Assembly: GCF_008710705.1 (NCBI RefSeq)
Contig: NZ_VYRZ01000001.1
Location: 1,178,001 to 1,242,000 of the forward strand
Length of the DNA: 64,000 bases
Direction of reading: 5' to 3'
Source: Microbacterium radiodurans
GTDB taxonomy: Bacteria; Actinomycetota; Actinomycetes; Actinomycetales; Microbacteriaceae
In this document: in pieces, positions 57,051-62,294 of the stretch
Position numbering within the stretch: the first letter of the stretch is position 1
How the letters are laid out: every line of letters starts with the position of its first letter
The notes under the pieces: model-generated
What the model saw: the letters and a program-made list of their open reading frames with translations, nothing else
The model's database searches: none
Told to the model about the DNA's origin: nothing
Translations under genes and position numbers: made by a program

Positions 57051-58028
57051 GTGCGTCTGCGACCGTTCGCCGTCCTGTCCGTCTTCGCCGTCTCGGCGCT
57101 CGCCCTCGCGGGGTGCGCGAGCGGGGACGAGCCGACCGAATCGCCCAGCCCGAGCGGCGGCGACGCCTCGTCGCAGTGCCTCGTCGACGCGCAGCCGGGC
57201 GACGCGTCTAACAGCATCGACGTCACCGGCTCGGCTCCCGACCTGACGGCGACCGTCCCGGCGAACCTCGAGCCCGCCGACATCGAGCGGACCATCACGA
57301 CGACCGGTGACGGCGAGGATCTCGCCGCCGGAGATCTCGTCTCGGGGTCCTACTCGATCTACGACGGCGCGACGGGAGACCTGCTCGAGTCGTCCGCCGA
57401 CACGTCGCCCGACGACTCGGGACTCGTCCCGATGCTCCTCGATCCGCAGCAGTACTCCGTGTTCGTCGCCGCGCTCGAGTGCGCCCCGCTCGGCTCCACG
57501 GCGGCGCTCGCGATCCCGGGTTCGGCGTTCGGAGAGGGGCGGTCGACCGTCGCCATCGTGGCCGAGGGAGTCGAGAAGCTCCCGACGCGGGCGAACGGCG
57601 CGGAGCAGGCTCCCGTGGACGGGATGCCGACGGTCGAACTGGCCGAGGACGGCGCGCCGACCGTCACGCTTCCGGGCGGCGATGCGCCGACCGAGGTTCA
57701 GCTCGCGAACCTCCAGGTCGGCGACGGCGCGACCGTCGAGACCGGCGACATGGCTTTCGTGAACTACACCGGCGTGAAGTGGTCGGACGGCACGGTCTTC
57801 GACTCCAGCTGGGATCGCGGCCAGCCGACCGCGTTCCCCACCAACGGTGTCGTCGCGGGCTTCCAGCAGGCGCTCGAGGGTCAGACGGTGGGCTCGCAGG
57901 TGCTCGTCGTGATCCCCCCGGCCGCGGGCTACGGTGCGAGCGAGGGCAACGAGCTCCAGAACGAGACCCTCGTCTTCGTCGTCGACATCCTCGGCGTGCA
58001 GCGCGCGCCCGAAGGCACCGTCGGCTGA
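57051..58028 (+). CDS. FKBP-type peptidyl-prolyl isomerase lipoprotein, tandem domains
   Basis: 325 residues from GTG 57051 (AAGAGG upstream), giving a proper signal peptide; the upstream ATG adds a hydrophilic start. Lipobox LAGC with Cys at 22, then a Ser/Pro linker. Residues about 80-190 form a degenerate FKBP-like domain; residues about 205-318 form a good FKBP domain (VGDGATVETGDMAFVNYTG, DGTVFDSSWDRGQP, VVAGFQQALEGQTVGSQVLV, IPPAAGYGA). It would help fold exported proteins. Just upstream of dxr. Confidence 0.9.
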   Translation: MRLRPFAVLSVFAVSALALAGCASGDEPTESPSPSGGDASSQCLVDAQPGDASNSIDVTGSAPDLTATVPANLEPADIERTITTTGDGEDLAAGDLVSGSYSIYDGATGDLLESSADTSPDDSGLVPMLLDPQQYSVFVAALECAPLGSTAALAIPGSAFGEGRSTVAIVAEGVEKLPTRANGAEQAPVDGMPTVELAEDGAPTVTLPGGDAPTEVQLANLQVGDGATVETGDMAFVNYTGVKWSDGTVFDSSWDRGQPTAFPTNGVVAGFQQALEGQTVGSQVLVVIPPAAGYGASEGNELQNETLVFVVDILGVQRAPEGTVG

Positions 58029-58066
58029 GCGAGAGCGCCGCACGCACCGCTCGTTAGGCTGACGGC

Positions 58067-59152
58067 ATGCGACGCGTCGTCATCCTCGGCTCCACCGGCT
58101 CGATCGGCACGCAGGCGCTCGACGTCATCGCGGCCAATTCCGACCGATTCGAGGTCGTCGGCCTCGCGGCCGGGGCGAATCGGGAGCTGCTCGCCGAGCA
58201 GGCGGTGCGCTTCGGCGTCTCGGAGACGGCGCTGGGCGCCGCCGACGCCGAGCTCCTCGTCCGTGCGGTCGACGCCGATGTGGTCCTGAACGGCATCACC
58301 GGCTCCGTCGGCCTCGGTCCCACCCTCGCGGCGCTCGAGACGGGGCGCGCGCTCGCCCTCGCGAACAAGGAGTCGCTCATCGTCGGGGGCGAGCTCGTCA
58401 CCGCCCTCGCTGCGCCCGGACAGATCGTTCCGGTCGACTCGGAGCACTCCGCCATCGCGCAGGCGCTGCGCTCGGGACGGGATGCCGAGGTGCGCCGGCT
58501 CGTCCTGACGGCGTCGGGCGGTCCGTTCCGCGGTCGGTCGGCCGCCGATCTCGGCGCCGTGACGCCGGCGGAGGCGCTCGCCCACCCGACGTGGGACATG
58601 GGGCGCGTCGTCACGACGAACTCGGCGACGCTGGTGAACAAGGGGCTCGAAGTCATCGAGGCGCACCTGCTGTTCGGCGTCGACTACGGCCGCATCGACG
58701 TCGTCGTGCACCCGCAGTCGGTCGTCCACTCGATGGTCGAGTTCGTCGACGGCTCGACCATCGCGCAGGCCTCGCCGCCCGACATGCGTCTGCCCATCTC
58801 GCTCGGGCTGGACTGGCCGAACCGTATCGCCGGGGTCGGGGCGCCGATCGACTGGACCGTCCCGACCGCGTGGACCTTCGAGCCGCTCGACGAGGCGGCT
58901 TTCCCCGCCGTCTCGCTCGCCAAGCAGGTCGGGCGCGCGGGGCGCACCTATCCCGCGGTCTTCAATGCCGCGAACGAGCAGGCGGTCGAGGCCTTCCACG
59001 CCGGGGCGCTCCGCTTCCCCGACATCGTCGCGACCATCGCGCGCACGATCGACGCGCACGAGCCGCCGTCGCAGCTCACCCGGGAATCGCTCGCCGGGGC
59101 CGAGCAGTGGGCTCGCACGGCGGCGGACAGCCTCATCGCCGACCGCACCTAG
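58067..59152 (+). CDS. dxr: 1-deoxy-D-xylulose 5-phosphate reductoisomerase
   Basis: 361 residues, slightly short of the usual 390-400. NADPH motif [10 protein letters not shown] at 6-15, [13 protein letters not shown], metal and substrate block DSEHSA, and the late [10 protein letters not shown] helix. First committed step of the MEP isoprenoid pathway. TAGGCT lies 6 bases before the ATG (leaderless). Followed by a hairpin terminator shared with the convergent pflA gene. Confidence 0.96.
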
Positions 59153-59159
59153 CCTCCCG

Positions 59160-59192
59160 GCGCCTGCGACCGCCCTGCGCGGTCGCAGGCGC
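59160..59192. terminator. Terminator between dxr and pflA
   Basis: Stem of 14 bp (59160-59173 with 59179-59192, loop CCTGC), between the dxr stop and the expected pflA stop at 59197-59199. Confidence 0.82.
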
Positions 59193-59196
59193 GCGG

Positions 59197-60007
59197 TCAC
59201 AGCGCCGGCAGCCCCTGCGCGCTGAAGCGCGCGCACCCGCTCGACCATCGCGGCATCCGGTGTCTCGCGTCCGGCGAGGGGATACGGGATGCCGAGGCGC
59301 TCCCACTTCGACGCCCCCATCTGGTGGAAGGGGAGCACCTCGACCCGCTCGACGTTCGGCCAGCGTCGTGCGATCCGCGCCACCGCGTCGACGTTGGCCG
59401 GCTCGTCTGTCAGCCCCGGCACCAGGACGAACCGGATCCACGCCGCGACACCGCGCTCGGCCAGCCGGTCGCCGAAATCGATCGTGGGCTGAAGCTCGCG
59501 CCCGGTGACCGCCCGGTAGGTCTCGGGGATGCCGGACTTCACGTCGAGCAGGACGAGGGAGAGGTCGTCGAGCAGCTCATCGGATGCCGCGCGGCCGAGA
59601 TTGCCCGACGTGTCCAGCGCCACGGTGATGCCGAGCTCGGCCGCCGACCGTGCCAGTCGCGTGACGAAGGCCGCCTGCTGCAGGGGTTCGCCGCCCGAGA
59701 TCGTGAGCCCGCCGCCGGTCGCGCGGAAGATCGGGCGGTAGCGCCGCAGGCGCGCCACGACGTCCTCGAGAGCGGTGTCGGAGCCGTCGCGCCGGCGCCA
59801 GGTGTCGGGGTTGTGGCAGTACTGGCAGCGCAGCGGGCAGCCGGCGAGGAAGAGGGTCATCCTGGTGCCGGGGCCGTCCACGGAAGTGACGAGCTCCCAG
59901 GAGTGCACGCCGGCGCTCGACCCGGACCGTCTCGCGATGAGACGGTCTCGACGGGCCGAGTCCGGCTCGGTCGTGCGCGGCGCTGCCGGCACCAGGACGG
60001 CGGGCAC
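59197..60007 (-). pseudogene. pflA: Pyruvate formate-lyase activating enzyme, frameshifted near its 3' end
   Basis: Radical-SAM enzyme: GTG start, CxxxCxxC cluster CPLRCQYC (C57, C61, C64), GGGLTISGGEPLQQ, and DVKSG. It installs the glycyl radical on PflB. The frame stays intact to about 59223 but then has no stop and would run on antisense to dxr until 57929, giving 692 residues. In the +1 frame the tail reads AQGLPAL and stops at 59197-59199, right before the terminator. A one-base insertion in a CTTCAGC context would explain this; loss of only the last few residues may leave activity. Sequencing error is possible. Confidence 0.82.
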
Positions 60008-60011
60008 GGGT

Positions 60012-62294
60012 TCAGACCCCCGCGTGGAAGGTGCGGCTGAGGACGTCGAGCTGCTGCTCGCGTGCCAGGCGCACGAAGTTGACCGCGTAGCCCGAGACGC
60101 GGATGGTCAGCTGCGGATACTTCTCGGGATTCGCCATCGCGTCTTCGAGCGTCGCCCGGGTGAGGACGTTGACGTTCAGGTGATAGCCCCCCGAGCCCAT
60201 CTGCGCATCCAGCAGTCCGACCAGGTTGTCGACGCGTTCGGCGGCCGTGCGGCCGAGACCGGCGGGGGTCACCGTGGTCGTGAGCGAGATGCCGTCCTGC
60301 GCCTGGTCGAACGGCAGCTTCGCGACCGAGAGGGCGGCGGCCAGCATCCCGTGCGTGTCGCGTCCGTTCATCGGATTCGCTCCCGGGGCGAAGGGCGCGC
60401 CCGCGCGTCGGCCGTCGGGAGTGTTGCCGGTGGCCTTGCCGTAGACCACGTTCGAGGTGATCGTCAGCACCGACTGCGTGTGCACGGCGTCGCGGTAGGT
60501 CTCGTGCCGACGGACCATCGTCATGAACTCCGCCACGAGGTCGCGCGCGATGTCGTCGACGCGGTCGTCGTCGTTGCCGAAGGCGGGGAAGTCCCCCTCG
60601 ACGAGATAGTCGACGATGAGGCCGGTGGCGTCGCGAACGGGTTCGACGCGCGCGTATCGGATCGCCGAGAGCGAATCCGCGGCGACGGAGAGGCCGGCGA
60701 TGCCGCACGCCATCGTCCGCAGCACGTCGCCGTCGTGCAGCGCCATCTCGAGGCGTTCGTACGCGTACTTGTCGTGCATGTAGTGGATGCAGTTCAGAGC
60801 GTCGACGTACGTCTCGGCGAGCCACTCCATCATCGTGCGGAAGCGTTCGCGCACGTCGTCGTAGTCGAGGATGCCGTCGGCCACCGGGGCGCTCGGCGGA
60901 GCCACCTGGGCGCCGCTCACCTCGTCGCGGCCGCCGTTGATGGCGTAGAGCAGCGTCTTGGCGAGGTTCACCCGCGCCCCGAAGAACTGCATCTGCTTGC
61001 CCACGGTCATCGGAGACACGCAGCACGCGATCGCCGCGTCATCGCCGCAGAGACCGCGGATGTGCTCGTCGGATTCGTACTGGATCGATGACGTGTCGAT
61101 CGACACCTGGGCGCAGAACCGCTGGAATCCGGCGGGGAGGTCGTCGCTCCACAGGACGGTGAGATTCGGTTCGGGCGCGGGACCGAGGTTGTACAGCGTC
61201 TGGAGGAAGCGGAATGCGGTACGCGTGACGAGGGGGCGTCCATCCTGGCCGAGCCCGCCGATCGACTCGGTGACCCAGGTGGGGTCGCCCGAGAACAGTT
61301 CGTCGTACTCGGGTGTGCGGAGGAAGCGGACGATGCGCAGCTTGATGACGAGGTCGTCGATGAGTTCCTGGGCGTCGACCTCGCTCAGCAGCCCGGCCGC
61401 GAGGTCGCGCGCGATGAACACGTCGAGGAAGGCGGTGTTGCGGCCGAAGCTCATCGCGGCGCCGTTCTGCTCCTTGACCGCGCCGAGGTAGGCGAAGTAG
61501 AGCCATTGCACGGCCTCGCGGGCGTTCTCGGCGGGACGCGTGATGTCGGATCCATAGGATGCGGCCATCGCCGCGAGCTCCTGAAGGGCCCTGACCTGTT
61601 CGGCGTTCTCCTCGCGCGCGCGGAGGACGTGCTCGGAGGAGCGGGTCGCGTCGAGAGCACGGCGTTCGCGTCGCTTGGCGTCGATGAGGGCGCGCGTGCC
61701 GTAGAGGGCGACCCGGCGATAGTCGCCGATGATGCGGCCTCGGCCGTAGGCGTCGGGCAGACCGGTGATGATGTGGCTGTTGCGGGCGCGGCGGACGTCG
61801 GGGGGATAGACGTCGAACACGCCGTCGTTGTGCGTCTTGCGGTACGTCGTGAAGACGGTCTCGAGCCCGGGGTCGACGGGGTATCCGTAGGTCTCGAGCG
61901 CGCCCTTCACCATGCGCCACCCGCCGTAGGGCATGATCGCGCGGCGCAGCGGTGCGTCGGTCTGCAGCCCGACGATCAGGGTGTCATCGCGGCAGATGTA
62001 CCCGGGGCCGTGCGAGGTGATCGTGGCGGGGGTGTCGGCATCGACGTCGTAGACGCCGCGCTCGCGCTCGACGGGGAACATCTCGGACAGGTGGTTCCAG
62101 ACCGACAGGGTGCGCGTCGTCGGGCCGGTGAGGAAGCTCGCGTCGCCCGTATAGGGAGCGTAGTTGCGCTGGATGAAGTCGCGGACGTCGATCCCGTCCT
62201 GCCAGGGTCCGGGGACGAACCCGTCCCAGGCGGTGGGCGCCGCGTCGTCCGGGACGCCGGCGGTCGGGGCTGGGGTGGAGATGACTGTGCTCAT
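60012..62294 (-). CDS. pflB: Formate C-acetyltransferase (pyruvate formate-lyase)
   Basis: 760 residues, the normal PFL length; ATG follows GAAGGACCTCC. Catalytic cysteine pair CC at 424-425 (AIACCVSPM) and glycyl-radical motif RVSGYAV with the radical glycine at 735. It cleaves pyruvate to acetyl-CoA and formate under anaerobic conditions. Four bases before pflA, so co-transcribed. Unusual in a Microbacterium-like organism that grows mainly aerobically. Confidence 0.96.

Follow-up and report, generated by a model that had tools for sequence, protein, structure and literature searches.

A putative stop-loss frameshift at the 3′ end of pflA in a Microbacterium genome

The gene of the pyruvate formate-lyase activating enzyme, pflA, appears to leave its ancestral reading frame just ahead of its stop codon in the window, the whole stretch of 64,000 nucleotides of Microbacterium radiodurans DNA analyzed here. 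The favored explanation, held at a probability of roughly 70%, is a real, lineage-specific net deletion of two bases within a GC palindrome, which would have produced a stop-loss frameshift of pflA. The features at the center of this reading are the following.

59234..60007, minus strand: pflA body, residues 1-258, a radical-SAM pyruvate formate-lyase activating enzyme with the motifs GCPLRCQYCHNPD and SGGEPLQQ
59226..59227, minus strand: indel junction, a net two bases short of close relatives, where pflA quits the ancestral frame
59197..59226, minus strand: remnant of the ancestral pflA 3′ end, +1 frame, F-S-A-Q-G-L-P-A-L-TGA
57929..59226, minus strand: run-on of the pflA frame, crossing the intergenic hairpin and antisense to all of dxr; no conserved coding region

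Translation of pflA begins with a GTG codon at 60007 on the minus strand. The body of the protein contains a Pfam Radical_SAM match and scores 277.6 bits against the NCBIfam PFLA equivalog TIGR02493, above the cut-off of 231.75, of which C-terminal length past residue 258 is no part. The three cysteines of the CxxxCxxC radical-SAM cluster motif (C57, C61 and C64) are each kept in 64 of 64 genomes. The C-terminus is where the protein departs from its family: the normal length is 12-15 residues past residue 258 and here it is 434, making the product a broken or altered member of TIGR02493. The open reading frame extends over 692 codons, from 60007 to its first stop at 57929, as anticipated by a first-pass annotation that described a radical-SAM frame without a stop running antisense to dxr.

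Loci for comparison were the best 80 of 535 from named genomes and all 64 strong matches (E below 1e-80, including the window's own) among the 366 genomes of the genus searched. The 146 loci examined contain three copies of the window's own locus and 143 others, or about 137 without duplicates, six seeming to repeat contigs under a second identifier. Past query residue 258, the 143 non-own loci have 12 residues in 134 cases, 13 in three, 14 in five and 15 in one, and all 63 congeners end after 12; the three copies of the window's locus continue for 434. The first-pass annotation had proposed a frameshift just before the pflA stop, a proposal that homologues with the same long frame would have undermined. 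None of the 143 non-own loci shares that frame, and within the sampled loci the frameshift is confined to the genome of the window. No other genome among the 366 of the genus is a close relative of this one (best protein identity 82%). An exact 25-base pattern has no match in viral_contigs, a set from which records close to this genome may be missing. No title found in the literature on Microbacterium and PFL, the PFL-AE C-terminus, non-stop mRNA or quasipalindromes names this allele.

The ancestral end of the gene can still be read in the neighboring frame. There, as had been noticed earlier for AQGLPAL and its TGA, the +1 frame runs ...RFSAQGLPAL* with the stop codon at 59199-59197. Scored against the tails of 11 relatives, FSAQGLPAL exceeds all 49,330 nine-residue +1-frame stretches taken from 149 genes sampled in this genome, as well as all 820 stretches standing directly before a +1-frame stop. 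It is the displaced end of pflA and no chance match. Compared with FAARGLTVY of the nearest relatives, it shows 4 of 9 identities. The earlier statement that only the last eight or so residues change is correct if this TGA is used; without a shift, it fails, as the pflA frame adds the 434 residues after Val258.

The size of the indel follows from spacing. The stretch that starts at Val258 and closes with the stop codon measures 39 nt in all 23 close relatives' loci (19 of them distinct) and 37 nt in the window. A single extra base had been suggested initially; gaining one base moves the frame exactly as losing two does (modulo 3), which explains why that frame reading seemed correct. The spacing instead points to two bases lost. 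The parsimonious event would be a net two-base loss at 59226/59227, spanned by the 0-frame CTT codon at 59227-59225. An alternative event, a one-base gain accompanied by the loss of one codon, is possible. The junction falls within a further feature.

59217..59232, no strand assigned: palindrome GCGCGC-4 nt-GCGCGC spanning the indel junction, a possible mutation hot spot

In the minus-strand reading, this palindrome is GCGCGC-TTCA-GCGCGC. Palindromes of the type (GCGCGC arms with a loop of 3-6 nt) number 14 in 400 kb of this genome, that of the junction included, against 3 over an equal length (400 kb) in a congener. Template-switch mutation is described for palindromes of this type (PMC7202029), and a template switch at the GCGCGC palindrome might have been the source of the deletion.

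The strongest competitor to a real deletion, unlikely although far from negligible, is a sequencing or assembly error, in which case the real gene would stay in the ancestral frame and carry a short tail ending ...FSAQGLPAL. The GC palindrome across the junction is a plausible place for a miscall, and the change is a singleton among the loci examined. The PflA body is also fully conserved: within residues 25-255, the 63 congeners are invariant at 91 positions, and the PflA of the window differs at none of these. The same holds in 56 of the 64 genomes, so that the body is ordinary in this respect. A long-lived loss of function would have let the body decay. Its intactness would thus speak against a long-standing loss of PflA function and counts to that extent against a real deletion.

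The tail bears on the same question from the other side. Read in the abandoned frame, it retains F, A, G and L, each the commonest residue of its column, as the error reading would have it. Its mean identity to the 63 congeners is nevertheless 3.92 of 9, the lowest of 64 (the next being 5.02), and it is without the C-terminal Y/F/H that characterizes 63 of 63 congeners. At body identities of 80-85%, the tails of other pairs average 7.06 of 9, with 7 of 360 at 4 or fewer, and the window's seven pairs average 3.57 with none above 4, figures that come from few residues (nine) and from pairs that are not independent. The tail is therefore more divergent than the body predicts. A read error predicts a normal tail and leaves the residues of an unread frame unchanged, so the divergence would indirectly favor a real deletion over a read error. 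The tail may have diverged before the frameshift, because the lineage of the window is long not only in pflA (0.24) but also in pflB (0.15) and dxr (0.19). A two-base loss outside a homopolymer is, in addition, not the commonest read error, which counts against a sequencing artefact.

A screen for other frameshifts in the assembly also weighs against error. By tblastn, 400 kb of this genome, or 13% of it, were compared with 400 kb of a congener, in a design blind to any shift that leaves the match unsplit and the C-terminal length unaltered. Split matches initially gave four candidate ORFs in the window's genome and eight pairs (seven ORFs) in the congener. Reading by eye covered all four of the former, which are spurious high-G+C ORFs or out-of-frame fused ORFs, and five of the eight congener pairs. 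A codon-position filter then left 171 orthologue-like ORF pairs, or 150 in the reverse comparison, and the two split-match candidates that survived it were read as spurious. Among the 171 pairs, a C-terminal excess over 40 residues is found in one ORF of this genome, pflA; a second ORF, with an excess of 37 residues, is not gene-like in appearance, and 0 of the congener's 150 pairs show an excess over 25. For 11 of the 171 pairs, the aligned frame contains a stop, either early on or internally. Four of these, when read, look like non-genes or like ORFs joined on their upstream side to non-coding or unrelated sequence; the other seven, whose stop lies within about 40 residues of the match start, were taken unread for misplaced starts. 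Widespread assembly error is therefore rejected: pflA is the sole convincing C-terminal shift among the 171 sampled pairs, and the assembly is not riddled with such indels.

The ribosome could in principle repair the frame during translation, an idea regarded as quite improbable. In corrective or programmed +1 frameshifting, peptidyl-tRNA-Leu would slip from CUU_C to UUC and translation would end at the TGA, yielding PflA of near-normal length. The CTT across the junction does provide CUU_C, the codon is rare in this genome (153 of 5,632 Leu codons), and the PflA body is under full constraint. CUU is moreover given as the shift codon of bacterial prfB (CUU_U) and of yeast Ty1 (PMC5009743). Set against this, the next codon is neither a stop nor rare, being the common Gln codon CAG (1,372 versus 45 CAA), no Shine-Dalgarno-like stretch is seen by eye upstream of CUU, and the sequence surrounding the site folds no more stably than its shuffles do (z -0.24). 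The shift would be needed in one genome only, as 0 of the 143 non-own loci need one, and among the 64 tails none is so unlike the rest as the one it would restore. With no homologue sharing the site and a common codon in the A site, programmed frameshifting was rejected as the leading idea. Very improbable as well is a freshly arisen corrective frameshift, in which the rare CUU made at the junction would let ribosomes slip +1 and still produce the constrained body with a near-normal tail, so that the genome tolerates the deletion; if true, it would be a new corrective frameshift caught in a free-living actinobacterium.

The last alternative concerns the region between pflA and its neighbor.

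59160..59192, no strand assigned: perfect 14-bp inverted repeat between convergent pflA and dxr, a presumed terminator without a U-tract
58067..59152, plus strand: dxr, convergent neighbor, intact, 361 aa

A genuine new C-terminal domain in the 434-residue run-on is rejected with near certainty: the frame is open over 692 codons, but matches to Pfam or NCBIfam families at E 0.001 extend no further than residue 267, the run-on is absent from all homologues examined, and of 20 relatives' loci 6 (4 of 16 distinct) have the antisense phase over dxr fully open and the others do not. Since pflA stops normally in those relatives, such an open phase can arise merely from the codons of dxr. Of 23 relatives' loci, 21 have dxr next to pflA. 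The open antisense phase of dxr is likely a high-G+C artefact, and could mislead ORF callers. The arms of the inverted repeat (59160-59173 and 59179-59192) stand just beyond the +1-frame TGA, and the 51 nt from 59150 to 59200 fold at -40.4 kcal/mol (z -4.6). Of the hairpin terminator that had been reported after the TGA, the hairpin itself is perfect over 14 bp; its action as a terminator is presumed, because a scan of 58900-59500 on both strands found no hairpin with a T run after it.

A real two-base deletion would have a limited set of consequences. With the final ~10 codons of pflA and its TGA shifted into another frame, translation would miss the ancestral stop and enter the intergenic hairpin. 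If the transcript ends at the hairpin, the mRNA would have no in-frame stop, and ribosomes would be rescued by tmRNA/SmpB. Transcriptional read-through would instead give a protein of ~690 residues with a meaningless antisense-dxr tail. In either form, non-stop or run-on, the activity of PflA would probably be lowered and need not be abolished, leading perhaps to lower PFL activation. We infer the reality of the deletion, along with its origin, the end of transcription and the effect on activity.

The enzyme that would bear these effects is encoded next to pflA.

60012..62294, minus strand: pflB, pyruvate formate-lyase, intact, 760 aa, the substrate of PflA

pflA lies directly downstream of this gene. 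A search of the genome with PF02901 finds PflB and nothing else, no NRDD match for NrdD was found there, and the NrdG model matches only PflA itself, below cut-off. For these reasons, PFL would probably be the only enzyme to suffer from an altered PflA. In the genus, strong PflA matches have a patchy distribution, with 64 of 366 genomes carrying one, and they tend to occur together with NrdD: 58 genomes have both PflA and NrdD, 6 have PflA only, 5 have NrdD only and 297 have neither. The genome of the window, with pflA and pflB yet no NRDD match, is one of the six PflA-only genomes. Loss of the anaerobic module was considered as a cause of the shift and rejected, since the other five PflA genomes that lack NrdD keep an intact pflA end; the missing anaerobic ribonucleotide reductase is thus context and no predictor of the shift.

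If real, the allele would be a natural experiment on two questions: whether PflA needs its conserved C-terminal tail, and how bacteria deal with a metabolic gene whose stop is gone. If it is an error, a single-genome shift beside a stop needs checking before annotation. The case is an ordinary mutation or an error, and either way no new kind of system.

Three known systems offer points of comparison. The first is the handling of stop-loss or non-stop mRNA by tmRNA-SmpB. The window is alike in that the ancestral stop is missed and that the genes of tmRNA and SmpB are both present in its genome; the system is known here from these genes, and the transcript end and the rescue are what we infer. 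The second is prfB (PMC5009743), which likewise has CUU at its shift site, and in the window a +1 reading reaches the ancestral stop. The window differs from prfB-type shifting in having no stop in the A site, no Shine-Dalgarno-like stimulator seen and no conservation. The third is PflA (PFL-AE) itself, represented by TIGR02493 and the E. coli chains 3c8f and 8fo0. With it the window shares the match above cut-off, the cluster motif, the adjacency to pflB and all 91 genus-invariant positions of the body. The difference lies in the last 12 residues and the stop, which have left the frame in the window; the chain from E. coli ends 13 residues past the aligned part, unlike the run-on of the window.
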